The notes under the pieces were generated by a model. The model ran no database searches and was not told where the DNA came from. It saw only the letters and a program-made list of their open reading frames with translations. Positions 1,933 through 44,236 of a DNA stretch of 64,000 nucleotides are shown one piece after another; the first letter of the stretch is position 1; every line of letters begins with the position of its first letter. This DNA comes from Anaerolineaceae bacterium (GTDB lineage: Bacteria > Chloroflexota > Anaerolineae > Anaerolineales > Anaerolineaceae): positions 62,001 through 126,000 of the forward strand of contig PABH01000020.1 in NCBI GenBank assembly GCA_002702705.1, in the 5' to 3' direction. The position numbers were made by a program, and so were the translations under genes.

Positions 1933-4736
1933 GTTTACGAAAAATTAGTAGTTATTTCTTACTCATTGTATTGCTGACAAGTTTTTTGCCTTATCATGCT
2001 GTCTATGCTGTACCTGGTATTGCACAATCTACTGAAGAGCAGTTTATTCAAAATCTCATTAATAACATGGATCCTGATGAAAAAGTGGGACAATTGTTTT
2101 TATTATCTTTTCAAGGAACCGATGTGGGGGAAGAGTCACAAATATATGACTTGATTACAAATCATCATATTGGTGGGGTGGTTTTATTACGATCGAATGA
2201 TAATTTTACTGATGAAGCACTTGTTCAGCGAACGCATACCATGATCACTGCTATGCAAACAAATGAATGGAATGATTCTCAGGAGAGTTTTACTGATTTA
2301 TCTACAAGGTTAGTAGTAAAAAATAATCATATTCCGTTATTTGTGGGTATAAGTCAGGAGGGAAACTCATATCCCTACGACAATATAATCAATGGCGTTA
2401 CACAATTACCTAACCAAATGGCGATTGGTGCGACCTGGAATCTTAATAATGCCCAGGCAGTTGGAAAAATCATGGGTCAGGAATTATCTGAAATGGGTTT
2501 TAATTTGTATTTTGGGCCTTCTTTGGATGTTCTGGATTTGCCATATGTGGAAGGTGGAGATGACTTAGGGACTCGGACTTTTGGCGGTGACCCATATTGG
2601 GTTGGTCAAATGGGAAAAGCTTATGTTACAGGTCTGCACAGCGGCAGCGACAACAAAATGGCAGTAATTGCAAAACATTTCCCTGGTCGCGGTAGTTCTG
2701 ACCGTTTGCCTGAAGAGGAAGTTGCCACCGTTCGCAAGTCGTTAGAGCAATTAAAGCAAATTGAATTAGCCCCATTTTTCACAGTGACAGAAAACTCACC
2801 TGGGCAATTGGATACGATTGACGGTTTGTTAATGTCACATATTCGATATCAGGGATTTCAAGGAAATATTCGTGCAACAACAAGACCAGTGAGTTTTGAT
2901 CAGGCTGCTCAAGAGCAATTAATGTCTTTACCTGAATTGCGTAGTTGGCGAAATGAAGGTGGCGTTGTTATTAGTGATAATTTAGGCTCTTTAGCTGTCA
3001 GGAAGTTTTTTGATCCTACTGGTGAAAATTTTGATCCAAGGCAAATCGCTCGAAATGCTTTTTTGTCAGGTAATGACTTATTGTATTTTGATTTGTATGT
3101 AGACACACATGATTTAGATCCATATTCAACGATTTTGCGGGTATTAGAATCCTTTTCATTAAAATACAGGGAAGATTCTGCATTTGCTCAAAAAGTGGAT
3201 GCTTCATTATATCGAATATTAAAACTCAAGTACCGCATGTATCCTAATTTTGATTTGGACGAGATTCTTACCGATCCTGAAAATTTAGAAAATATCGGTA
3301 ATCAACAGGAAATTGGATCGACAATCGCAAATGAAGCTGCGGTATTAATGAGCCCGGATGTTCAAGAACTTTCTTCTATTATGCCATTACCCCCACAGCA
3401 GAATGAAAGCATTATCTTTTTTACTGACCAACGTACTAGCCAACAATGCACAACTTGTTCTGAACAAAGTGTATTTTCAACAAATGCATTAAGAAATGCG
3501 GTTTTAAGATTATATGGCCCGGAAGCTGGTGAATTGGTTTCCGCCACCCAAATGTCTTCATTTTCGTTTGAAGTATTAAATGAGTATTTATCTGACCCGG
3601 ATAGCAATCCAACCCTGGATTCCACTTTAAGAAATGCAAATTGGGTTGTGTTTTTATTCCTAAAACCGAATATTGAAACACCAAAATCAATGGCCATGTT
3701 AAATATGTTATCTTCTCGAACGGATCTATTAGAAAACAAAAAGGTAATTGCTTTTGGTTTTGATTCACCATATTATTTGGATGCAACAGATATTAGTAAG
3801 TTAACAGCGTATTATGTGCTTTTCAGTAAAACAAATTCTTTTGTTGAGGCCGCTGCACGAATATTATTTCAAGAACAAAATACAATGGGAGCACTACCAG
3901 TTAGTGTGCCAGGTATCGGTTATAACTTGATTGAAGCAACATCCCCTGATCCAAACCAAATTATTCCTGTGTTTTTTGAATTTCCATATTCAACTGAAAC
4001 AGATTCACCTGAAAACCCTCAAACATCCGTAATTCCAGAATTTGAATTAGGTGAAACAGTCGCCATTCGAACGGGTGTGATCTATGATCATAATCGAAAC
4101 CCTGTCCCGGATGGAACCGTGGTACGTTTTTTGTTTTCTAGTGAGGGCAGCGGTACTTCTCCTCAGCAAATGGAAACTACAACGATCAACGGTATCGCAA
4201 GAATAGCTTACCGGGTTCAATCTACCGGAATTATTGATATTCGTGCGACCAGTGACCCAGCGTTAAATTCTCAAGTTTTAAATATTGAAGTGCCAGAAAC
4301 GGAAGGGGCTGAAGCAACGATTGTTGTTCTTCAAACCCAGCAACCAACGGAGACTGATGCACCACCAACACCAACGGCGACTATAGAACCAACTGCAATT
4401 CCGGTAGTCAGCCAAGATGAAACGAATGTTAAACCCAATATGTTAGATTGGTTTTTTATGGTGCTTATTATCGGTTTTGGTTCAATTGCCATATTTTTCA
4501 GTTTTAAAAATCAAATACCGATTCGTTGGGTTTTACGATGGACATTATTAGCCTTAAATGGTGGTGTACTGGCTTTCACTTTTATCAGTATTCAACTTGC
4601 AATAAAAGCAACCTGGTTAGATCAAATTAAAACAGCAGATATGATTGCAATAACCTTTGCTGGGGTTTTATTTGGGTGGCTGGTTGGTTGGGCTTGGTAT
4701 GCTAGTAATCAATGGAAATTAAACCGTCTGCGTTAA
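1929..4736 (+). CDS. membrane-anchored glycoside hydrolase family 3-like protein
   Basis: The ATG at 1929 forms an ATGA overlap with the preceding stop and gives a clean signal peptide (hydrophobic run SYFLLIVLLTSFLPY); a longer start at 1905 would only add a hydrophilic tail. Residues about 40-430 form a GH3 barrel with KHFPGRG and the nucleophile motif VVISDNLG. The second domain (about 440-690) is a GH3 C-terminal-like sandwich, followed by a Big_1-like Ig domain (about 700-790), a Thr/Pro-rich linker and three membrane helices (about 840-927). The NagZ-type loop KHFPGHGxxxxDSH is altered here (KHFPGRG...DRLPEEE), so the usual His/Asp acid-base dyad is missing. It is probably a cell-surface beta-N-acetylglucosaminidase-like protein with uncertain activity. 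Confidence 0.8.
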   Translation: MSLRKISSYFLLIVLLTSFLPYHAVYAVPGIAQSTEEQFIQNLINNMDPDEKVGQLFLLSFQGTDVGEESQIYDLITNHHIGGVVLLRSNDNFTDEALVQRTHTMITAMQTNEWNDSQESFTDLSTRLVVKNNHIPLFVGISQEGNSYPYDNIINGVTQLPNQMAIGATWNLNNAQAVGKIMGQELSEMGFNLYFGPSLDVLDLPYVEGGDDLGTRTFGGDPYWVGQMGKAYVTGLHSGSDNKMAVIAKHFPGRGSSDRLPEEEVATVRKSLEQLKQIELAPFFTVTENSPGQLDTIDGLLMSHIRYQGFQGNIRATTRPVSFDQAAQEQLMSLPELRSWRNEGGVVISDNLGSLAVRKFFDPTGENFDPRQIARNAFLSGNDLLYFDLYVDTHDLDPYSTILRVLESFSLKYREDSAFAQKVDASLYRILKLKYRMYPNFDLDEILTDPENLENIGNQQEIGSTIANEAAVLMSPDVQELSSIMPLPPQQNESIIFFTDQRTSQQCTTCSEQSVFSTNALRNAVLRLYGPEAGELVSATQMSSFSFEVLNEYLSDPDSNPTLDSTLRNANWVVFLFLKPNIETPKSMAMLNMLSSRTDLLENKKVIAFGFDSPYYLDATDISKLTAYYVLFSKTNSFVEAAARILFQEQNTMGALPVSVPGIGYNLIEATSPDPNQIIPVFFEFPYSTETDSPENPQTSVIPEFELGETVAIRTGVIYDHNRNPVPDGTVVRFLFSSEGSGTSPQQMETTTINGIARIAYRVQSTGIIDIRATSDPALNSQVLNIEVPETEGAEATIVVLQTQQPTETDAPPTPTATIEPTAIPVVSQDETNVKPNMLDWFFMVLIIGFGSIAIFFSFKNQIPIRWVLRWTLLALNGGVLAFTFISIQLAIKATWLDQIKTADMIAITFAGVLFGWLVGWAWYASNQWKLNRLR

Positions 4737-4738
4737 GT

Positions 4739-5722
4739 TTATTTTCCAACCGTAATTAAAAAGCTTAATAAAATTAAAATTATAGATGACCAAACCAGGG
4801 TTTGTTCCGGTTTTAACCTTAATAACTCGAATATACTTAATGAAGAATTACGAGGTCTTGGAATAGTGGGGCGGTCTCCAATTAAACCTTGACGAAATGC
4901 TCGCACATTTTCAGGTCTCTCATCAGGATGTAACCTCATTGCCCAAAGTATAACCTTTTCGGTTCGAATGCTAATATCCGGATTAATTGAACGTGGTGAA
5001 GGTAATCGATTTGGTTCTAAAAATCTTTGTCTTGCATCAACAGGTGCTGTATTGGTTAACAAGTGGTACATTGTAGCACCTAAGGAAAAGATATCACTAC
5101 GGATATCTGTGTGTCCATTATCACCTCCATATTGCTCTAAAGGTGTGTAAATTGCTGTTCCTTGCCCTTGCACGATAGTTATTGTAATTTCCCCTGGTGC
5201 TGCAATTTTAACTAACCCAAAATCTACCAATTTTATTAAACCACTAGGCGTTAATTTCATATTGCTTGGTTTGATGTCTCGATGTAAAATAGGTGTGTTT
5301 TGTTCGTGTAGATATATCAATGCGTCGGATAGCTGTCCAATCCAGTTTAATACCTCGTGTTCAGGTAGGAATTCATTATTCTGTTTCGCTTCTATCATTA
5401 ATGTTCGCAGGTCTTTGCCTGGAACATAATCCATAATTAGATAATCTCTTTCATCAATAGAGAAAAAATCAGAGACTTTAGGTAGGTTGGGGTGATCCAG
5501 GCGTGCCAATACAGTGGCTTCGCGTAAAAATTGGTCACGAGCTTCTTTTAATAAATCTTCAGGAAGTGAACGATCATGTTCCACTTCTTTCAGAGCGCAT
5601 TGTCGACCACTTAATCTTAAATCTTCAGCAAGATAAATTGACCCGGAACCGCCCTGGCCAATTATATTGATTATGCGATATCGGTCGCGTAATACATCTC
5701 CAGAACGTAATGGAAGCGGCAT
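4739..5722 (-). CDS. Ser/Thr protein kinase with C-terminal membrane helix
   Basis: A Hanks-type kinase of 327 residues. It shows a glycine loop (GQGGSGSIYLAE), the ATP lysine in CALKEV, the catalytic loop HRDIKPSN, and DFG in LVDFGLVK. A single hydrophobic segment (SSIILILLSFLITV) ends the protein only a few residues from the C-terminus, so the kinase is cytoplasmic and tail-anchored with essentially no external sensor. A TTG at 5743 also opens the frame but has no ribosome binding site; the ATG at 5722 has GAGGAG about 13 nt upstream. It is divergent from the FHA gene at 6120, a likely phosphopeptide-binding partner. Confidence 0.9.
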   Translation of the reverse strand: MPLPLRSGDVLRDRYRIINIIGQGGSGSIYLAEDLRLSGRQCALKEVEHDRSLPEDLLKEARDQFLREATVLARLDHPNLPKVSDFFSIDERDYLIMDYVPGKDLRTLMIEAKQNNEFLPEHEVLNWIGQLSDALIYLHEQNTPILHRDIKPSNMKLTPSGLIKLVDFGLVKIAAPGEITITIVQGQGTAIYTPLEQYGGDNGHTDIRSDIFSLGATMYHLLTNTAPVDARQRFLEPNRLPSPRSINPDISIRTEKVILWAMRLHPDERPENVRAFRQGLIGDRPTIPRPRNSSLSIFELLRLKPEQTLVWSSIILILLSFLITVGK

Positions 5723-6119
5723 TCTCTGGCGTATTCTCCTCAATAAATGTGTTATAGCAACAAATCAAAACAAATTTTCTTTTTTTTGGAAAACAGTTAT
5801 AAACAAAATTCTGGGTAATCGGCACCTATTTTAATTAAACGTTAATTCAAACGTTTTTTATATAAGTAAAACAAACAAGATACACTGAAATTTCCAGAAA
5901 CGAAATTATCACAAACGTTATATAGAATTAATTTTTTGTTATATAAATTTCCTTGCTACAAGGTCGGTTTGTTGTGTTTTCCAAAATAAAGTTTTAAATG
6001 TGCTGAAATGTTACAATATTGATTATTTTCAATCGGCGTCTTTTTACAAAATAATCAATCTTTGATATATTATACCCTATAGGCATAATGAAAGTTTAAT
6101 TTTTATATTTGAGGGAAGA
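5723..6119. promoter_or_regulatory. divergent intergenic region between kinase and FHA genes
   Basis: About 400 bases of AT-rich sequence with no supported gene. For the rightward FHA gene, TTTACA (6043-6048) and TATATT (6066-6071) are separated by 17 nt, a plausible promoter, and the start codon follows GAGGGAAGA. Toward the kinase there are three copies of the palindrome AACGTT at 5838-5843, 5850-5855 and 5914-5919; the first two lie one helical turn apart. They could be operator half-sites, but this is speculative in such AT-rich DNA. Confidence 0.4.
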
Positions 6120-6794: not shown

Positions 6795-7357
6795 CTCTTC
6801 CCAAGTTCAAAACTCCCGTGGATTTTAAAAATTCCAGTGTCAATAATCTCTGATACGATCAGTTTTTTGCTAAGGAAGATCTTTTCTGGTGGGTTCAAAA
6901 GGATGCCGTCTTTGGGGAAATTACCATTTGGGTTTTCGACGACAGTGATTAATGATGGCAACCAACCGTCTTTCAGAGGAAAATGAACTGTACCATCAAA
7001 AATTTTGATTGTGTTTTCCATTTTTGTTAAAAGAGATATTAATTTTGTTGATTTTTGAACAGTCCAGCGTAACAAATTTGTTTTCCAAAATTGATGGTAG
7101 GATAATTTTAAGCTGGTACCAAAAATGTAAAATGGTTGGATTTGTGCAGTTATCTGACCTAATGCTTCTATAAACTCGGTTATATGTTTACCGTCCATAT
7201 CAAAACGTTGAATTGTGAAATGTAAATTCTGATGAGAATGGCCACCATACTTTTGGATAAGTGCTTTTTGTCTTTGTGTAAATATATCAATTTGTTGTTC
7301 GTCAGGTTGTAATAGTAAACAAATATCTCCCGGTAACGCAGCACGGTTTGATAACAT
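6791..7357 (-). CDS. 2H phosphoesterase / 2'-5' RNA ligase-like protein
   Basis: 188 residues. NLHFTIQRF near residue 45 matches the first HxT motif of the 2H (LigT-like) superfamily, and the spacing and strand pattern fit the bilobal fold. The second motif, expected near residue 137, reads WLPSLITVV: the histidine is replaced. The protein may therefore bind rather than cleave a 2',3'-cyclic phosphate, or use another residue. The start is ATG at 7357 with AAAGG about 10 nt upstream. It sits just downstream of the XRE-cupin regulator on the same strand, with a 59-nt gap. Family membership is inferred from one clear motif, so confidence is moderate. Confidence 0.6.
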   Translation of the reverse strand: MLSNRAALPGDICLLLQPDEQQIDIFTQRQKALIQKYGGHSHQNLHFTIQRFDMDGKHITEFIEALGQITAQIQPFYIFGTSLKLSYHQFWKTNLLRWTVQKSTKLISLLTKMENTIKIFDGTVHFPLKDGWLPSLITVVENPNGNFPKDGILLNPPEKIFLSKKLIVSEIIDTGIFKIHGSFELGKS

Positions 7358-7416
7358 CGTTTTATACCTTTAGCGAATTATTTTGTTGTGAATAAGTGTT
7401 GTTAATTTTTATGTTT

Positions 7417-8064
7417 TTATTCTTCTTCAGTGCTTTCAGTATCTTCAAGCTCTCTGATTTTTGCAGACGCGATGTGATATTCACTAGGGTGGTCACTTTC
7501 TTCAAAACCAGTGATGACAATAATGGCATTACAAACCGTTTTTCCGGGATTCCTCCAACGGTGGATTAATTGTGAAGCAAACATTAAACTATCGCCAGTT
7601 TCTAGTGTGTGGATTTCTCCTGCTACTTCATATTCCAATGTACCACGAAGACAGAATACAAATTCATGTCCAGTATGAAGCATACCGTGCGGTCCGCTAG
7701 AACCGCCATTTTCCAAAGTTAACATGAAAGCTTCAACTTTTCCGACAAACGATTCTCCGCCTAGACCTTCCCAAAGGCCTCGCATAAAAGGAACGCGGTT
7801 TCTTTCAGCAGCTCTTTTTACAACAATTTGCGATTTTTCAGGTTCCTGGCGGAAAAACGTTGTTATCGGAATTTCTAATGCTGAGGCAAGTTTATTTAAA
7901 GTACTGACAGATGGGGAAGTGAGATTTCGCTCAATCATACTTAAAGCATTTGCGGATAATCCGCTACGGCGAGCTAATTCGCGCATTGAAATTCTTCGAG
8001 CTTCTCTTAATTCCCTTAATCTCTGTCCAACATCTACTGAAATAGCATCATTGTCAAAACTCAT
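7417..8064 (-). CDS. XRE family regulator with C-terminal cupin domain
   Basis: 215 residues. Residues about 12-70 form a Cro/C1 helix-turn-helix (LRELREARRISMRELARRSGLSANALSMIER is split here as LRELREARRISM and RRSGLSANALSMIER). Residues about 115-190 form a cupin barrel with GMLHTGHEFVFCLRG and GDSLMFASQLIHRW. This architecture is typical of small-molecule-responsive repressors and activators of the PuuR type. The ATG at 8064 follows GGAGGAAA. A perfect 15-bp palindrome (TTTACAT-A-ATGTAAA) lies 29-43 bases upstream of the start, consistent with autoregulation. The ligand is not evident from the sequence or neighbours. Confidence 0.88.
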   Translation of the reverse strand: MSFDNDAISVDVGQRLRELREARRISMRELARRSGLSANALSMIERNLTSPSVSTLNKLASALEIPITTFFRQEPEKSQIVVKRAAERNRVPFMRGLWEGLGGESFVGKVEAFMLTLENGGSSGPHGMLHTGHEFVFCLRGTLEYEVAGEIHTLETGDSLMFASQLIHRWRNPGKTVCNAIIVITGFEESDHPSEYHIASAKIRELEDTESTEEE

Positions 8065-14572: not shown

Positions 14573-14637
14573 AATTAGTTTGATTTTATATGGATACAAT
14601 GAAATTGTCTATCGATTGTAATTCCCCAAAAAATAGG

Positions 14638-14731
14638 CGGGAATGGATGGGAGTCGAACCCACCGCGGCCTGCATAACAACCCGCCACCGGTTTTGAAGA
14701 CCAGGAAGCCCACCGGGACCTAACCATTCCC
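14638..14731 (-). tRNA. selC: tRNA-Sec (UCA anticodon)
   Basis: On the minus strand the 94-nt RNA has an 8-bp acceptor stem (GGGAATGG/CCATTCCC), a 5-bp T stem (GTGGG/CCCAT) with loop TTCGACT, discriminator G, and an anticodon arm CTGGT-CTTCAAA-ACCGG with UCA in the loop. The long variable arm (GCGG...CCGC) and the 8+5 acceptor/T geometry are hallmarks of bacterial tRNA-Sec, which reads UGA as selenocysteine with SelB. The gene encodes CC but then T, so CCA is completed enzymatically. A T6 tract follows. The genome should therefore encode SelA, SelB, SelD and selenoproteins outside this window. Confidence 0.95.
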
Positions 14732-37017: not shown

Positions 37018-39006
37018 TTGAAAAAGAAATTTAAATTATCCCAAATCATTGCCATTTTTTGGATCATCATTGTTGTTGGTGGGTATTATTTAATTCACGA
37101 ACCACTTCCGAAAGGGATGTTTTTTCCCTTCTTGCAAACTGTTTGGGCGGTTGTTTCCGTTATGATGGTGCTGATTTTGGCAGGTGGCATTGGTTTCTTA
37201 ACTTTGAGGTTAGAAGAATATCCAGCACTTGCACGGGGAGTGATCCAGGCATCGTTGGGTTTGGGTATTCTAGCATTGTTTGTTTTACTTCTAGGATCAA
37301 TCTGGCGGATTAATACCTATTTTATATTTTTTTTGGTACCATTTTTTCTAGTTGTTTATCATCGTGGGGTAATGGGTTGGTTAAGATTATGGCGTGAAGC
37401 GTTGATTGAACAATGGGTTTCTGGGGGTAAAATGCAGCGGTTGGTTATTTTATTGATTGGCGGTCTGTTTTTTATGATGTTAATCACTGCACTTGCACCA
37501 CCGATAAAATATGATGCCCTTAATTATCACCTTACTTTGCCAAAAACATACTTGTTGAACCAAAAAATAACCGATTTGCCCTGGTTGGTGATGTCCGGTA
37601 TGCCGCAAACAACAGAAATGTTATATCTCATAGCGATGGCGCTGGGTGGGGAATCCGCACCACTGTTAATGAATTGGGTGTTTGGTTTACTGACTATTTT
37701 AGGTCTGGTGGGGTATTTATCGGATCGGATTGATTCATTGGCTGCGTGGGTAGGAGCAGCAGCTTTGCTTTCAGGTTTTACCCTTGTCTCTGCTTTGGCC
37801 TGGGGGTATGTGGGCTGGTTGAGTGCTATATTTGGTCTGTGTACATTGGTGTTGTTGGACACTTTTTATCGCAATAATGGGGATAAACGAACGATTTTTT
37901 ATGCGGGGTTATTTGCTGGTCTGGCGTTTTCGACCAAATATCCAGCAGGGGTGATGATGGCCTGCGGTGGTGTTGTTTTAACCTGGATCGTTTTTCGGCT
38001 AAAACAACGTTGGTGGCCTGTTGTTTGGCGGTTTGGGTTAGGCGCATTGATATTTTCAGTTCCCTGGCTGGTAAAAAATTTTATAATGACCGGAAATCCG
38101 CTTTATCCCTTTTTTTTTGAGGCTGGCGCAATGGATGCGGTACGGATTGGCGTTTATCAGGGATCACCAACGTTTGGAGATTGGACAGACTTCGCATTTT
38201 TACCATTAAAGGCAGTCTTGACAGGTGTAGAGGGTGCGCCTGGTTACAGTGTTTCTTTGGGGCCATTATTGTTAGGATTGGGGCTTTTGGCTTTTCTGGG
38301 TTGGACTTTTAAATCTAAAAATGAAAAAATGAGCCTGACCGTAACAGGGATCATCAGTTTGATAGGTATCGTGATATGGTCCGTTGGAAATCAATTAAGT
38401 GGTTATTTGGTTCAAACACGTTTTTATTTTGTTTTATTCCCAACGTTTGCCAGTCTGGCTGGATTTGGTTATTTTGAGCTTCAAAAAATTAAATCCAAAA
38501 GAAATTGGTTTGGTAAATTTGTTAATACCGTCATTCTGCTGGTTTTGGTGCTTAACTTGGTGCAGATTGGTGCAGAAACAAACCATAAAGGGGCTGTCAG
38601 TGTTTTATTTGGGCAAAAGAGCCGGCAGGACTATTTATATGATAATTTGGGTTGGTATGCGGTTGCTTTGGATGAAATAAAAAAGCTTCCGGAAAGCAGT
38701 AAGGTAATCATGCTTTACGAACCACGCGGTTATGGCTGTGTTCCAAAATGTGACCCGGATGAAATTTTAGACCGTTGGAAAACGGAGAATATCCGTTACG
38801 GAAATTACCAAACGATGGAAAAAGAATGGCGTGAACAGGGATTTACCCATTTGTTGGTTTATACCGTAGGGGTTGATTTTTTACGTGGAGATAATGACCC
38901 TCATCATCCCCTTTCCGATTTGCAGGCATTGGATACTTATCTGGCCACCTTGACAATACCGCTTGATATCGGCGGGGTGTATGCCCTGTATACGATCCCT
39001 GATTAA
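37018..39006 (+). CDS. multi-span membrane glycosyltransferase-like protein (GT39/GT-C type)
   Basis: 662 residues from TTG 37018, which has GAAGGA 9 nt upstream. An earlier GTG (36943) would have to translate across a TATAAT at 36981-36986 and adds a hydrophilic tail. About 13 membrane helices run from residue 8 to about 545, followed by a soluble domain ending in DLQALDTYLATLTIPLD. The acidic first external loop (APPIKYDALNYHLTLPKTYLL; core YDALNYHL) is typical of GT-C enzymes that use polyprenyl-phosphate sugars. AFSTKYPAG fits the dolichyl-phosphate-mannose family too. Donor and acceptor are unknown; the gene stands alone. Confidence 0.72.
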   Translation: MKKKFKLSQIIAIFWIIIVVGGYYLIHEPLPKGMFFPFLQTVWAVVSVMMVLILAGGIGFLTLRLEEYPALARGVIQASLGLGILALFVLLLGSIWRINTYFIFFLVPFFLVVYHRGVMGWLRLWREALIEQWVSGGKMQRLVILLIGGLFFMMLITALAPPIKYDALNYHLTLPKTYLLNQKITDLPWLVMSGMPQTTEMLYLIAMALGGESAPLLMNWVFGLLTILGLVGYLSDRIDSLAAWVGAAALLSGFTLVSALAWGYVGWLSAIFGLCTLVLLDTFYRNNGDKRTIFYAGLFAGLAFSTKYPAGVMMACGGVVLTWIVFRLKQRWWPVVWRFGLGALIFSVPWLVKNFIMTGNPLYPFFFEAGAMDAVRIGVYQGSPTFGDWTDFAFLPLKAVLTGVEGAPGYSVSLGPLLLGLGLLAFLGWTFKSKNEKMSLTVTGIISLIGIVIWSVGNQLSGYLVQTRFYFVLFPTFASLAGFGYFELQKIKSKRNWFGKFVNTVILLVLVLNLVQIGAETNHKGAVSVLFGQKSRQDYLYDNLGWYAVALDEIKKLPESSKVIMLYEPRGYGCVPKCDPDEILDRWKTENIRYGNYQTMEKEWREQGFTHLLVYTVGVDFLRGDNDPHHPLSDLQALDTYLATLTIPLDIGGVYALYTIPD

Positions 39007-39130
39007 TTTGTTTTTCAACTATGGTATTGATGATACCTTTCAACAGGTTCATCAATCTTTTATTGAAGTGAGATCAATACAATACGCAAAGCAGCTAGTA
39101 AATTCTTTTTTTATAACTTTGATTCTGATT

Positions 39131-39166
39131 GTAAAAAACCCATAAAAAAATTTATGGATTTTTTAC
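39131..39166. terminator. AT-rich hairpin after the GT39-like gene, possible terminator
   Basis: GTAAAAAACCCATAAA (39131-39146) pairs almost perfectly with TTTATGGATTTTTTAC (39151-39166). The stem is weak in GC, and the T-run is part of the stem itself, so termination is plausible but not certain. Confidence 0.4.
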
Positions 39167-39223
39167 GCAACTAATTTTATACTTCATTTATAATGAGTAA
39201 AAATTTTTGAGGGTGGCAGATTG

Positions 39224-40381
39224 ATGGACCAATTAAAAAAGAATAACTTATTACATACTTCATCGAACCAACTGATCGATGCGCTGACAGGCTGTTGGAA
39301 TAGAGTTCGTTTTATCGATTTTTTAGCGGAGGTAATGTCTGATCCATTCATTGTTAAGTGGTCGGCAGTGGGGATTGATTTAAACAATTTTAAGAAAATC
39401 AATGATTATTTTGGACATTCATTTGGTGATGCTTTACTGCAATGGGTAGCTGATCGCTTAAAAGAGGAATGTCCTTACACTTGCCGTGTTAGTGGTGATG
39501 AGTTTTTTATGTTATTTTTGGAAAACGACCATGCCATCCATAATAAAAATGCCAAGTTTCTCTATGAAAAAATAAATCATGATTTGTCTAGTTTTTTTAC
39601 AGCACATGCAAAAAATCCTGAGAAGGCGCAAGAATTCTTACCACTTTTAACAATGTCTGTTGTGAACCTATCAAAAAATACCAGAATTGCGATGGATAAG
39701 GTTTTTACTCTTTTAGATTATTCCGTTTATGAATTAAAGAGTAAATACCGCCAGAACAATTTAACAACTTCTTTTCGTATTTATGATATGTCAGCGTTAT
39801 TACCGTTGATTTCAACAGTCGAAGAGAATTGGGTATCAGAATATTTAATGAAACGCGTGTCAGAATTAAGCAAGGCATTAGCGGAAAGTAATACGCTGGC
39901 ACTATCCGATCAGGTCAGTGGGTTACCAAATGCATTGGCTGCGGAAAGTTATATTAACAATATTTTGGTTCAGACGGACCCGCAAAAAGATGAAATATGC
40001 CTTTTATTTATCGATGGTGATGATTTAAGACTTTATAACAAGATTAGTTATCAATCCGGGGATCAAATGATCCGTAACCTGGCTTTGCTTTTTAAAGAGA
40101 GCCTAAATAGAAATGAATTTTTAGCACGTTGGCGCAGAGGGGATGAATTTGTAATTATTTGTCCGGGGCTTTCCATCGAAGCTGGAAAAGAAAAAGCAGA
40201 ACAACTGAGAGCGATGATTGAAGCAAAAACGCAAAGCTGGCAAATTCCAGTCACAATTTCCATCGGATTGGCCTGTTACCCACATCATGGTGAAAACCTG
40301 GATGAATTATTGGAGCATGCAGAACTTTGCCTTACCCAAGCGAAAAGTCTGGGTAAAAACCAGGTTGTTTTCATTGAATAA
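39224..40381 (+). CDS. tandem GGDEF domain protein
   Basis: 385 residues from ATG 39224 (GAGGGTGG upstream). Two GGDEF domains with no sensor or membrane segment. First (about 15-160): DALTGCWNRVRF, GIDLNNFKKINDYFGHSFGD and RVSGDEFFMLF. Second (about 225-385): DQVSGLPNALAAE, FIDGDDLRLYNK, SGDQMIRNLA, WRRGDEFVIICPG and SIGLACYPHHGENLDELLEHAE. The signature loops read SGDEF and RGDEF. Conserved GDEF and metal-binding Asp suggest diguanylate cyclase folds; whether both are active is open. A linker of about 60 residues with LMKRVSELSKALAESNT looks coiled-coil, which could pair protomers. Confidence 0.88.
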   Translation: MDQLKKNNLLHTSSNQLIDALTGCWNRVRFIDFLAEVMSDPFIVKWSAVGIDLNNFKKINDYFGHSFGDALLQWVADRLKEECPYTCRVSGDEFFMLFLENDHAIHNKNAKFLYEKINHDLSSFFTAHAKNPEKAQEFLPLLTMSVVNLSKNTRIAMDKVFTLLDYSVYELKSKYRQNNLTTSFRIYDMSALLPLISTVEENWVSEYLMKRVSELSKALAESNTLALSDQVSGLPNALAAESYINNILVQTDPQKDEICLLFIDGDDLRLYNKISYQSGDQMIRNLALLFKESLNRNEFLARWRRGDEFVIICPGLSIEAGKEKAEQLRAMIEAKTQSWQIPVTISIGLACYPHHGENLDELLEHAELCLTQAKSLGKNQVVFIE

Positions 40382-40403
40382 AAATCTATAGTCCAAGTTG
40401 ATC

Positions 40404-40432
40404 TTGAACTTCATCATACAAGTACTTATAAT
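40404..40432 (+). promoter_or_regulatory. near-consensus promoter of the orphan structured RNA
   Basis: TTGAAC (40404-40409), 17-nt spacer, TATAAT (40427-40432). The structured RNA begins 8 nt after the -10 box. It lies just 23 nt after the GGDEF stop codon. Confidence 0.75.
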
Positions 40433-40439
40433 AATAATT

Positions 40440-40561
40440 GAGCGGAGAATGCTTAATCCAAATACCGGATCAGGTCTAAAGCCCGGGGCGTTGGATTTCC
40501 TTTTCTGGAGTATATCCCTTCTTGGGAGCGCCTACCTACTTGCATCCCGCTCACTTTTTTT
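40440..40561 (+). ncRNA. orphan structured RNA with terminator-like 3' end
   Basis: The gap 40382-40707 contains no supportable protein but a compact RNA of about 120 nt. The ends pair: GAGCGG (40440-40445) with CCGCTC (40547-40552), continued by ATGC/GCAT (40449-40452/40542-40545). Inside are AATCCAA/TTGGATT (40455-40461/40491-40497) enclosing CCGG/CCGG (40465-40468/40483-40486), and TCCC-TTCTT-GGGA with an adjoining CAGGATC-like single strand. The closing stem is followed after CA... by seven T (40555-40561), so it could itself terminate transcription. Promoter, three-way junction and U-tract mark a discrete RNA gene. I do not recognise the family; 6S RNA or a leader element for the phosphorylase gene are possible. 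Confidence 0.6.
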
Positions 40562-40707
40562 AATTTTGGGGATAATACATTTAATCAAAGTTTCATAATT
40601 GTAGTTGTTAGGTATATGGTCGTAAATCACCTAAGTGATTTTTCTTTTCAACCATTCTATTGTAGAATCATATCCCACGAAATAAACCATGGAGAGGATA
40701 AATTAAA

Positions 40708-41475
40708 ATGGGAACTGAAACCGAAAAACAATATCATATCAAAGTCGGACCGGGGGGGGTCGGTGGATATGTGCTTTTGCCGGGAGATCCTGGGCGCTGC
40801 GAATCGATTGCGGCTTATTTTGATGATGCGAAATTTGTCTCTTTTAACCGCGAACATAAAGTATATACTGGCACATTAGACGGGGAAAAGGTTTCGGTTG
40901 TGTCGACCGGGATGGGCTGCCCTTCCACCGCAATCGCGGTGGAGGAATTGATCAAGGTTGGCGCACATACGTTTATCCGTGTAGGCACCTCTGGTGCGAT
41001 GCAGCCGGATTTAAAGTTAGGCGACCTTGCGATTGTAAACGCAGCCATTCGGGATGAAGGTACAACCCGCCAGTATTTGCCAATTGAATACCCGGCAGTC
41101 GCGGATTTGGAAGTGATCAACGCCTTGGTGACCGCCGCGAATAAACTAGGTTATGATCACGCCGTTGGCGTTTCTCACACAAAAGATTCCTTTTATTCGG
41201 AAACCGAACCGGACCGCATGCCGATGGCAAATTACCTGCACCAGCGTTGGGATGCCTGGGTTGGCGGTGGGGCAATTTGTTCCGAGATGGAAGCATCCGT
41301 TTTATTCGTTTTGGCTGGCATCCACCGCAAACGAGCCGGCGGGGTGATGATGGTGATTGGGTCGGATATGGCGACCATCACCGGAAAAAAACATGATCCA
41401 GACGGCATGATTAAAACAGCGGTAGAAGCGCTTCGGATATTAATCCGGCAGGATCGGGAAAAGAAAAACCACTAA
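40708..41475 (+). CDS. uridine phosphorylase-type nucleoside phosphorylase
   Basis: 255 residues of the PNP/UDP family I. Motifs: LLPGDPGR near residue 23 (phosphate-binding Gly and Arg), FNREHKVYTG, GTSGAM (phosphate site) and CSEMEAS near residue 195 (ribose-binding Glu-Met-Glu). The HTKDSFY stretch and length favour uridine phosphorylase over purine forms, but specificity is not certain. It would release uracil and ribose 1-phosphate. ATG 40708 follows GAGAGGATAA. It is about 150 nt downstream of the orphan RNA and converges on valS. Confidence 0.85.
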   Translation: MGTETEKQYHIKVGPGGVGGYVLLPGDPGRCESIAAYFDDAKFVSFNREHKVYTGTLDGEKVSVVSTGMGCPSTAIAVEELIKVGAHTFIRVGTSGAMQPDLKLGDLAIVNAAIRDEGTTRQYLPIEYPAVADLEVINALVTAANKLGYDHAVGVSHTKDSFYSETEPDRMPMANYLHQRWDAWVGGGAICSEMEASVLFVLAGIHRKRAGGVMMVIGSDMATITGKKHDPDGMIKTAVEALRILIRQDREKKNH

Positions 41476-41500
41476 GCAGCACGAAGACAAAACATAAAAA

Positions 41501-41537
41501 AAAGAAACGCACCGTTCTATTGGTGCGTTTCTTTTTT
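41501..41537. terminator. bidirectional intrinsic terminator between the phosphorylase and valS genes
   Basis: AAAGAAACGCACC (41501-41513) pairs with GGTGCGTTTCTTT (41522-41534). The T-run on the right and A-run on the left serve both converging genes. Confidence 0.88.
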
Positions 41538-41539
41538 AA

Positions 41540-44236
41540 TTACATATTGTTTAGTTGCTCAGTTAGTTTGGCTGCGGTTTCTTCATACACAGCCAGTTTT
41601 TCACGTTCTTTTTCAACCAATGCTGCGGGTGCTTTTTGGGCGAAGGGTGAATTTAATAAACCAGTTAATCGTTGGATATGACTTTGGGCTTCACTTAATT
41701 CTTTTTCCAAACGGGCTTTTTCCGCTTCCTGATCGACTACATCTGCCAGCGATAGATAAACTTCCACGCCGGATACAACCAATGAAGTTAAATCCGCGGG
41801 TTTGTTATCCATGTTTTCGACAATTGTGAAATTGTCCGAATCAAGCCCGGCCAGTGCAGCGATGGAGGTTTGTTGATCTTGTATGATTGATAGGTTTTCT
41901 CCGGCAATGATGATGGCAGGAATTCGTTTACCGGGTTTTAATTTCTTTTCAGTTCGTACATTACGAATACCGCGCACTACATCCTGTACCAGGGTGAAAT
42001 CTTTAACCTTTTCATCTTCCCAGCCTTCCAGTTCTTGTGCTTCTGGCCAGGCTGCAATCATCAATGCATCTGCCCAACCTTCTTTTGGTGCTAACAAATC
42101 TGATTTTTCCTGACAGGTTTGTTTCAGGTGTCCCCATAAACTTTCAGTGATAAATGGGGTAAAGGGATGTAAAAGACGCAGACAAGTATCCAATACTTTA
42201 ACCAAAGTGGATGCCGTGTAATAAGCTCTGTCTCCACCTTCAGCAAGTTGGTTTTTGGCGATTTCAAGATACCAGGCAGCAAATTCTCCCCATAAAAATT
42301 CGTAAATATAACGACCTGCTTCCCCGTATTGATGATTCGTAAACAATCGCTCCACATCACGAATTAACTGATTCATTCTTGCCCATATCCATGAATCGGC
42401 TAAAGTCCACTGCGGTTCCGCCTTAGGGGCATGTGGGGCTCGTTCCAATGTCCCAATCACAAAACGGCCAGCATTCCAGACCTTATTGGCAAAATTACGG
42501 TTACTCTCCACTTTTTTGACAGATATATTCATATCGTTGCCTGGTGTTGAACCTACCAGGACCGTGAAACGTAATGCATCCGTACCCATTTCTTCCATGA
42601 CAACCAGCGGATCGATGACGTTTCCTTTGGTTTTGCTCATTTTCTGACCATCACCATCACGTATGAGGCCGTGTAAATACACGGTTTCAAAAGGTGCCTG
42701 GCCTGTGAACTCCAAACCAAACATAATCATACGAGCTACCCAGAAAAAGAGGATATCGTAACCCGTCTCCATCATGGTGGTGGGGTAGAAGTAATTAAGG
42801 TCAGGCGTATTTTCTGGCCAACCCAACGTAGAAAATGGCCATAATCCGGACGAAAACCAGGTATCCAGCACATCCGGATCCTGTTTTATATTTTTACTGC
42901 CGCAGTGTGAACATTCCGTTGGGTCTTCTCTTGCTACGGTTACCTGGTCACAATCCTGACAGTACCAGACCGGTATACGATGGCCCCACCATAACTGGCG
43001 GCTGATACACCAGTCTTGGATATTATCCAACCAGTTGTTATACACTTTTGAAAAACGATCCGGCACAATGGTTATTCGACCATCTCGAACTGCTTCCAGG
43101 CCGGCAGCAGCCAGCGGTTTCATTGTGATAAACCATTGGGTGGAAACCATCGGCTCGATGATTTCGCCACCGCGCTGGGAACGAGGTACGGTATGTGTGT
43201 AGGGCTGTTCTTTGATTACCAATCCGGCTTCTTTCATATCGGCCCATAATTTTTCTCGGCAGGCAAAACGTTCCATACCGGCATAGGGACCGCCGTGTTG
43301 GTTAATATGAGCATTGAGATCCATGATATTGATAAATTCAAGGTCATGGCGTTTCCCAATTTCATAATCATTCGGATCATGAGCCGGAGTGATTTTTAAC
43401 GCTGCTGTACCAAATTCACGGTCTACGTATTCATCAGCGATGACCGGTATTTCACGGTTAAGGATTGGCACAAGGACCATTTTACCAATGAATTTTTGGT
43501 ATCGTTCATCTTCCGGGTGGACAGCCACGGCGGTATCACCCAAAATCGTTTCGGGGCGGGTGGTCGCAACGGGAATAAATTCATCGGGATTTTCAGCGAG
43601 TCTGTATTTGAAATAATATAAAAATCCGGGTTCTTCAACGTATTCCACTTCAAGATCAGAAACGGCTGTTTTTAAACCAGGGGACCAATTGATCATTCTT
43701 GGACCGCGGTAAATCAAGCCTTTTTCGTATAGCCGAACGAAAGCTTCCCGAACCGCTTCAGAGAGCCCTTCATCCAGCGTAAAACGTTCGCGATCCCAGT
43801 CACAGGAGGCACCCAAACGTCGAATCTGGCGTGTGATTTTGCTGCCGTATTCTTCTTTCCAGGCCCAAACTTCTTTTTCAAATGCCTCACGACCCAATTC
43901 TTCTCTGGATCGCCCCTGATCAACCAGCATTTTTTCCACCTGGAGTTGGGTGGCAATACCCGCATGGTCAGAACCTGGCACCCAGAGCGTGGGATACCCT
44001 TTCATGCGGTGATAACGGATCATAAGATCCTCCATCGCTACAAACATGGCGTGTCCGAGATGTAAACCACCGGTTACGTTTGGTGGGGGAATTGAAATGA
44101 CATAGGGTTTTTTGGAAGGATCAAATCCTGGTTGGTTTGGGTCATTGGTAGGTTTAAAATATCCCTTTTTTTCCCACCATTCATACATTTCTTGTTCAAT
44201 TGCTGAAAAATCATAAGTTTTTGGCAGTTCCGTCAT
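41540..44236 (-). CDS. valS: valyl-tRNA synthetase
   Basis: 898 residues. Class I synthetase motifs: PPPNVTGGLHLGHAM (HIGH variant) near residue 35 and KMSKTKGNV near residue 525. The CP1 editing domain contains TTRPETILGD. Anticodon-binding helical domain and a C-terminal coiled-coil arm (LEKELSEAQSHIQRL...KLAVYEETAAKLTEQL; core ARLEKELSEA) identify ValRS rather than IleRS. ATG 44236 follows GGAGGATTTT; an ATG four codons earlier overlaps the ribosome binding site. Regulated by the T-box leader upstream. Confidence 0.97.
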   Translation of the reverse strand: MTELPKTYDFSAIEQEMYEWWEKKGYFKPTNDPNQPGFDPSKKPYVISIPPPNVTGGLHLGHAMFVAMEDLMIRYHRMKGYPTLWVPGSDHAGIATQLQVEKMLVDQGRSREELGREAFEKEVWAWKEEYGSKITRQIRRLGASCDWDRERFTLDEGLSEAVREAFVRLYEKGLIYRGPRMINWSPGLKTAVSDLEVEYVEEPGFLYYFKYRLAENPDEFIPVATTRPETILGDTAVAVHPEDERYQKFIGKMVLVPILNREIPVIADEYVDREFGTAALKITPAHDPNDYEIGKRHDLEFINIMDLNAHINQHGGPYAGMERFACREKLWADMKEAGLVIKEQPYTHTVPRSQRGGEIIEPMVSTQWFITMKPLAAAGLEAVRDGRITIVPDRFSKVYNNWLDNIQDWCISRQLWWGHRIPVWYCQDCDQVTVAREDPTECSHCGSKNIKQDPDVLDTWFSSGLWPFSTLGWPENTPDLNYFYPTTMMETGYDILFFWVARMIMFGLEFTGQAPFETVYLHGLIRDGDGQKMSKTKGNVIDPLVVMEEMGTDALRFTVLVGSTPGNDMNISVKKVESNRNFANKVWNAGRFVIGTLERAPHAPKAEPQWTLADSWIWARMNQLIRDVERLFTNHQYGEAGRYIYEFLWGEFAAWYLEIAKNQLAEGGDRAYYTASTLVKVLDTCLRLLHPFTPFITESLWGHLKQTCQEKSDLLAPKEGWADALMIAAWPEAQELEGWEDEKVKDFTLVQDVVRGIRNVRTEKKLKPGKRIPAIIIAGENLSIIQDQQTSIAALAGLDSDNFTIVENMDNKPADLTSLVVSGVEVYLSLADVVDQEAEKARLEKELSEAQSHIQRLTGLLNSPFAQKAPAALVEKEREKLAVYEETAAKLTEQLNNM

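Follow-up and report, generated by a model that had tools for sequence, protein, structure and literature searches.

Does a short stretch of DNA between two protein genes of an Anaerolineaceae bacterium, with a promoter at one end and a terminator-like stem at the other, encode a free-standing RNA, and of what kind? The stretch lies at positions 40404-40561 of the window, by which we mean the whole 64,000 nucleotides (nt) analyzed here (GCA_002702705.1, contig PABH01000020.1, positions 62,001-126,000 of the forward strand). The window's own genome is G000, and G and L numbers denote the other genomes and loci of the analysis. Our results support a new structured RNA family with connections to insertion sequences (ISs) of the IS110 family and without a convincing match in Rfam, a conclusion drawn from sequence comparison.

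The outline of the locus, as given in an initial annotation, was confirmed by direct reading, and all of its features are on the + strand. A -35 element TTGAAC (40404..40409) is followed after 17 nt by a -10 element TATAAT (40427..40432), both also recovered by a promoter scan, and after seven more nt by GAGCGG (40440-40445). On the 3' side, CCGCTC (40547-40552), which pairs with GAGCGG, is followed by AC and by seven T (40555..40561), presumably an intrinsic terminator. The RNA closed by GAGCGG/CCGCTC is 113 nt long, and its closing stem extends inward through a bulged A, GA/TC, a second bulged A, and TGC/GCA. The promoter matches the consensus at 10 of 12 positions and has the top score among the sites in 39000-41600, a region in which promoter-like sites are not commoner than in shuffles (7 vs. 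7.2 expected). The three-way junction initially proposed is indeed the minimum-energy fold, while the interior of the closing stem (P1) takes another form in the comparative fold described below. Folding energy alone is unremarkable, with z-scores of -1.89, -1.15, and -1.64 depending on the choice of ends. The four terminator-like sites listed by a scan restricted to loops of 3-8 do not include the T-run. Downstream of the RNA, at 40624-40645, lies a weak hairpin whose tail is rich in T. By themselves, promoter, fold energy, and T-run are weak evidence for an RNA gene; the locus rises above chance because it is conserved in distant genomes.

This conservation is hardly visible at the level of plain similarity. 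A blastn search with 162 nt against the 147 genomes of the family found only the window's own copy as a strong match, the next best reaching an expectation value (E) of 0.002 with matches of 20-30 nt. A covariance model built from the window RNA alone (R1) found a locus in G109 at E 3.2e-4, which has its own promoter-like sites and T-rich tail, the same ends, and differences that preserve pairing. With a second model (R2), built from the trimmed window RNA and G109, so that G000 and G109 are training members, 5 of the 147 family genomes gave matches at E<=2: G000, G109, and G066 below 1e-6, and two doubtful ones at 1.44 and 1.79 (L103, L104) that we rejected as weak. Among 400 genomes drawn from the order, R2 found seven at E<=0.5, of which G000, G066, G237, G317, G374, and G405 are significant; the remaining one, L109 at 0.32, overlaps a coding frame and was rejected. 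Two further matches (L126, L127; E 0.19, 0.31) were discarded as weak, and L099 (E 0.87) because it lies inside a coding frame, which we take to be murG. An exact-pattern scan of genome contigs returned eight stretches: five known loci, one chance occurrence (L119, an Opitutae match within a long coding frame and without an R2 match), and two new loci, L121 and L123, from assemblies titled Gemmatimonadota or Gemmatimonadetes, with R2 scores of 29.6 and 44.5 bits. The total is therefore nine loci in nine genomes, seven from Chloroflexota and two from Gemmatimonadota. Inspection by eye places the end of a -10-like hexamer 6-7 nt ahead of the first G in 8/9 loci (unclear in L121) and a T-rich tail behind the RNA in 7/9 (weak in L123, absent in L121). 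G374 has a second, tandem copy of the RNA with a broken P1 3' strand. No viral contig matched either of two RNA patterns, and similarity to phage or plasmid DNA was limited to short matches at E 0.07 or weaker.

The nine loci share a compact fold. The structured RNA, including its T-run, occupies 40440..40561 according to the covariance models, and a third model, R3, matches 40440-40563 at 93.8 bits, the window being one of its training rows. P1 consists of a 6-base-pair stem and further pairs past a conserved bulged A; in the window its strands are GAGCGG-A-GA-A-TGC (40440..40452) and GCA-TC-CCGCTC (40542..40552), and across the family the span from end to end of P1 is 90-119 nt. Inside P1 come a junction strand with NUCC and a purine-rich stretch, then the hairpin P2 (CCGG at 40465..40468 with CCGG at 40483..40486), and directly afterwards P3 (GGCG at 40487..40490 with CGCC at 40529..40532), which is stacked on P4 (UCCC/GGGA in the window, 40515..40527 with its loop). 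Pairing of the NUCC strand with GGAN in P3, on its 5' side, creates a pseudoknot, PK1. In the window, PK1 can by eye be extended to AAUCCAA (40455..40461) with UUGGAUU (40491..40497), comparative support being for the NUCC/GGAN core; the alignments place the 3' strand of the window row otherwise, MAFFT one column off and the R2 alignment at a later TGGAG. An optional small hairpin, TTCC..GGAG (40497..40510), has a counterpart, by eye, at the same site in G237, L121, and L123. A second pseudoknot, PK2, is suggestive only: the P2 loop AGGUC could pair with GACCU after P3 (AGGT at 40472..40475 and ACCT at 40534..40537, by eye), L121 and L123 offer GAGAU/AUCUC, G066 has no equivalent, and the pairing is equaled by 101 to 1989 of 2000 shuffles when the sequences are taken singly.

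Base pairing in this fold is preserved through compensatory changes. In an R2-fitted alignment of ten rows (tandem copy included), 96.7% of cells are paired (87.6 in shuffles), 10 of 28 pairs are changed on both sides (5.0 in shuffles; 1/500 reach this), and there are 21 further pair types (5/500). The covariation score is 0.288 compared with 0.122, a value reached by 0/500 shuffles, and falls to at most 0.066 when the partner is slid. Because this alignment leans toward structure, covariation was measured again on a structure-blind MAFFT alignment of eight loci, from which G066 and the tandem copy were left out. Here 96.6% of cells are paired, 5 of 26 pairs show two-sided change (3/500 shuffles), and the score is 0.209 against 0.085 (0/500); the number of pair types is not exceptional (97/500). 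The PK1 pair 17-60 of this alignment takes all four Watson-Crick forms (GC 3, UA 3, AU 1, CG 1), the window row being one column off for the pairs neighboring it. In both cases, the counted pairs were picked from the same sequences, and the shuffles ignore relatedness. Comparative folding in relatives was one of two tests through which the initial annotation could have been overturned, and the finding survived it: compensatory changes beyond chance in the nine loci indicate that the window locus encodes a structured RNA.

On one hand, the initial annotation considered this RNA possibly 6S-like; on the other, it allowed for a new family. The Rfam search it called for was carried out. Rfam 15 gave no match at E<=10 over the window RNA in a scan of 39800-41000, RF00013 included, and the 6S RNA of G000 is a single RF00013 match on another contig (C43:4595-4775, 56.9 bits); the 6S-like reading is not supported. 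For five further members (G109, L106, L108, L102, L105; G405, L121, and L123 were left out), nothing convincing was found over the RNA: in L105, the first tandem copy is touched by a hit to mir-1200 (E 7.9) that was taken as chance, and a hit to the long non-coding RNA MESTIT1_1 in G109 (E 5.2) lies outside the RNA. The initial interpretation is partly supported: a free-standing RNA of a new family is what the nine loci bear out, and the regulatory role is putative. Among the literature matches listed, no paper was recognized by its title as describing the window RNA, subscription papers and preprints being outside that search.

The connection to mobile elements comes from the surroundings of the RNA. 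Six of the nine loci, including the window's, stand alone with no such transposase gene beside the RNA. The other three are found where an IS110-family transposase gene, in one case a mere remnant, has its 3' end; they are convergent with that gene and overlap its stop codon. In G374 and G405, the tail of the RNA runs over the gene end, and the TCA of CCGCTCA, read on the complementary strand, is the transposase stop codon. The two transposases carry the Pfam domains Transposase_20 and DEDD_Tnp_IS110 and are 72% identical to each other. The homologous DNA of these two loci begins ~30 nt ahead of the RNA, takes in RNA and transposase, and reaches into the non-coding region past the start of the transposase; farther upstream, all matches are short (22-25 nt, with E 0.002 and 0.11). 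G317 retains, at the corresponding position, the last 45 residues of such a transposase (42%, E 0.002), and L123 has a distant IS110 relative, 24% identical, ~2 kb from the RNA. In G000, G109, and G066, no related transposase was found genome-wide at 1e-20, a level at which 4/147 genomes have one; for G237 and the Gemmatimonadota loci, the search covered the stretch around the RNA.

Related elements extend this picture. In the bacterial family f12, to which G374, G405, and G317 belong, a transposase relative at 1e-30 occurs in 25/152 genomes. R3 matches 11 of the 30 transposase loci examined, fully in G374 and G405 and weakly in nine (E 5e-5 to 0.04), two of which are copies of one IS in G416; the other loci have no R3 match at E<=1. 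The nine weak loci, termed A-type, have the outer stem of P1 as in the window type, with a similar promoter layout and place, and in an A-type alignment of seven, 4 of 20 consensus pairs are changed on both sides. An Rfam scan of seven A-type loci gave nothing convincing over the RNA, and a HOTTIP_3 hit (E 1.4) overlapping the end of the A-type RNA in L137 was taken as chance. If only those loci are counted that include the 3' side (L148 is cut off) and encode a transposase sharing at least 49% identity with the G374 protein, 10/11 have a P1-type RNA, and the RNA therefore looks native to that element clade; L137, with a transposase 42% identical, also has one. The P1-type RNA is on the strand opposite the transposase in 11/11. 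G416 holds five copies of one IS, one with a ~0.3-kb insertion, that include an A-type RNA gene ~140-155 nt from where the copies stop matching, between the IS end and the transposase. Since the gene lies inside the matching region, it is part of the element.

Several details of these elements were noted in passing. The A-type interiors of L130-L137 and L155 read CAAAACC, a hairpin, and UCUCC-hairpin-GGAGUU. The G416 element spans L158 3569-5321, with copies in L159, L162, L166, and L167, and four of the five adjoin (C/T)AACAnAGCGTGCAC, which resembles an integron attC end; another, diverged IS110 type is also multi-copy in G416. At L113 8778-9096, promoter and RNA are duplicated in tandem, and at the junction the P1 3' strand and the T-run of the first copy have been lost. 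Repeats adjoin the RNA in L112 (~120-nt units downstream of 8928) and in L121, where 52-nt repeats lie upstream of the RNA around 7337-7455 and a repeated stretch downstream. In L111, a large gene at 3104-5767 (+), serine-recombinase-like by eye, is ~3 kb from the RNA of G109.

Which explanation fits these observations best? That there is an RNA family and that it is linked to IS110 we consider very likely. For the window itself, we favor, as probable, the reading that its RNA is an orphan: a copy of a small RNA linked to IS110, spread horizontally and still maintained. Under this orphan reading, 40404-40561 would be a free-standing gene for a structured RNA of ~113-120 nt with its own sigma70-type promoter and terminator; the scattered family it belongs to, defined by closing stem, hairpin, P3/P4, and pseudoknot, sits inside IS110-family elements in some Anaerolineales, and the window copy would have kept the fold without a transposase. 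The likeliest mechanism, put forward tentatively and in itself rather improbable, would be that the RNA acts in trans, its pseudoknotted core binding a protein or a ribonucleoprotein. Within the IS, the putative partner would plausibly be the transposase or its guide-RNA complex, with the RNA tuning transposition, and in orphans the RNA could be a retained or retargeted regulator. More speculative still is the idea that the presumed guide of an IS110 clade is accompanied by a second RNA, which would serve RNA-guided recombination as a subunit or as a regulator, with orphans kept under selection. Such a second RNA would be convergent, self-terminating, and placed at the right end, with constant P1 and promoter and exchangeable interiors (the A-type multi-hairpin or the W-type pseudoknot), and orphans in element-free hosts might be domesticated regulators or a guard against incoming elements.

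Other kinds of gene or element could in principle produce parts of this pattern. An open frame of 49 codons does exist at 40449-40598, with a hydrophobic product and an ATG 16 nt past the -10 element, as a small-protein gene just behind a promoter would have; however, its codon score is matched or undercut by only 1/326 of the window's gene chunks and is reached or exceeded by 76% of 720 open non-coding stretches, and what is conserved across loci is base pairing. Its product has no match in Pfam or NCBIfam and no relative in genome or viral contigs, and among the 147 genomes only weak hits, of which eight were inspected and none retained; the best protein hits, in L082 and L083 (E 0.002-0.003), fall on the C-terminus of a large protein that resembles a transporter. 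The initial view that no protein is supported at the locus holds as far as these tests reach, and a protein gene is the least probable of the explanations considered here. A cis-acting leader, that is, a riboswitch or attenuator of the nucleoside phosphorylase gene in which P1 and the T-run form a regulated terminator, is slightly less far-fetched, though still very improbable. The downstream gene, a phosphorylase-superfamily protein (PF01048), starts 147 nt downstream on the strand of the RNA, a flavodoxin gene starts ~138 nt downstream in G109, and compact pseudoknotted folds suit ligand binding. In G066, however, the gene that follows downstream has the opposite orientation, the neighbor is convergent in G374 and G405, and the downstream genes of the loci examined are unrelated, with neighbors differing in kind and strand. 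In addition, inspection of five genus mates showed no such RNA upstream of the phosphorylase, and R1 found none in the genus. A DNA-level element, such as a miniature inverted-repeat transposable element, a hairpin used in recombination, or just a terminator or insulator sitting where an IS ends, would account for the inverted-repeat ends, the T-run, the place at IS110 ends, and the tandem copies in G374. It would not account for internal helices and a pseudoknot that covary or for a -10-like hexamer held at a fixed distance outside the repeat in 8/9 loci, no consistent target duplication was seen by eye, and we regard it as very improbable. Much the same low probability applies to a bridge RNA or seekRNA, the guide of an IS110-type element, or a relic of one. 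According to passages of PMC11187229, the guides of IS110-family elements are non-coding RNAs whose genes lie next to the transposase, with seekRNAs measuring 70-100 nt, a setting and size that suit this reading; two longer non-coding regions are reported there for 26 of >350 listed ISs. When the RNA was compared with the insertion junction of three elements (two window-type, one A-type) on both strands, no match of at least 7 nt was found. The other non-coding end of the same elements gave 7-8-nt junction matches on both strands, which are only suggestive, as 26-121 of 300 shuffles reach each and none is significant singly. Against a guide, moreover, the window-type interior is conserved across elements and stand-alone loci, and the RNA is encoded against the transposase and exists without one.

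The most serious competitor to the orphan reading, doubtful in our view though well ahead of those just discussed, is a host small-RNA family with a function of its own, spread by ordinary horizontal transfer and captured secondarily by IS110 in one bacterial family. Most loci (6/9) have no such transposase alongside, two of them in another phylum, and the window type is carried by an IS only in G374, G405, and the remnant G317, all from f12. Set against this is the presence of P1-type RNA in nearly every related element described above. The preferred reading, an orphan of IS110 origin, has to be held against a number of observations. The flanks of the six stand-alone loci, compared with the IS ends, gave only matches of 10-18 nt at E 0.05 or weaker; with no convincing IS-end remnant, an origin of the orphans from an IS is not shown, and the IS may instead have captured a host RNA. 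The IS110-link counts stand without a random-neighbor control. The RNA is also rare, with matches at E<1e-6 in 3/147 family genomes and 6/400 order genomes, and it is found by R1 and R2 in none of the seven genus mates of the window. R3 gave the window as the sole significant match in 249 class genomes, a less sensitive search in which 15 of hundreds to >1000 candidates were scored per genome. Within the elements, A-type interiors differ, with two or more hairpins, and do not share the window-type interior. L168 of G007, with a transposase 58% identical, has no such RNA by R3, and its end can fold into a closed multi-branch hairpin. The transposase stop varies relative to the RNA (n=11), being at the same spot in four, 21-29 nt inside the RNA in four, and 31 nt short of it in one, while in two, both from G416, the frame stays open past the RNA. 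Pairing of the RNA with the transposase (tnp) leader gave no consistent signal in nine elements: 7, 21, 31, 83, 103, 107, 124, 164, and 174 of 200 shuffles pair as well. Finally, transcription of the window RNA is inferred, as are its orphan origin and its mechanism.

The genes next to the window RNA were also considered. Upstream is a GGDEF protein (PF00990; 39221-40381), for which the family's 146 other genomes yielded no match at 1e-40; it was rejected for that reason as a partner of the RNA. The phosphorylase gene is convergent with a valyl-tRNA-synthetase-like gene, an arrangement kept in five genus mates, none of which has the GGDEF gene in the stretch compared. The GGDEF gene and the RNA are both missing from genus mates and might mark a small acquired region. 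By eye, and in contrast to the window, L053 and L055 have long leaders upstream of the nucleoside phosphorylase after a TTGTACAAT motif, that of L053 containing GGGTGTTTTTGG..CCAAAAACACCC as a strong inverted repeat. Elsewhere in the window, at 14636-14731 (-), is a selenocysteine tRNA gene (RF01852, 72.4 bits), on which ARAGORN concurs.

Bridge-RNA recombination relies on IS110 elements, which act as RNA-guided recombinases. If our reading is true, a conserved second RNA gene in an IS110 clade, with stand-alone copies in two phyla, would point to an RNA component beyond those in the passages of PMC11187229 and PMC11208160 considered here. Chloroflexota would also gain a structured RNA family unmatched by the Rfam scans. 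How does this RNA compare with known systems? Like 6S RNA (RF00013), it is free-standing with a closing stem; unlike 6S RNA, it carries a pseudoknot and does not match that model. The Transposase-resistance RNA motif (PMC2864571) is, by its name, a candidate structured RNA tied to transposases. In the table of that paper, the Chloroflexi-1 and pan motifs have Rfam numbers and the Transposase-resistance motif has none, so the Rfam scans may not cover it. Bridge RNAs and seekRNAs, as portrayed in PMC11208160 and PMC11187229, are likewise structured non-coding RNAs in a non-coding end of an IS110-family element, and a place beside an IS110/IS1111 transposase is found for the copies in G374 and G405, not for that of the window. 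The window-type RNA differs in being without guide-like junction complementarity, on the opposite strand, under its own internal promoter, and also present without a transposase. The closest known parallel, by its description in PMC8450116, is Ssr9 of ISPpu9, an IS110-family element of Pseudomonas putida. Ssr9 is ~180 nt long and on the same strand as tnp, whereas the present RNA is 90-119 nt long and convergent with it; Ssr9 is proposed to pair with Asr9, an antisense RNA of the tnp leader, whereas the present RNA has a covarying pseudoknotted fold and no consistent pairing with that leader. In common with the RNA described here, Ssr9 is a small RNA with its own promoter and a predicted terminator downstream of an IS110-family tnp, and it is missing from some IS copies and occurs in tandem and orphan copies, as does the present family overall.
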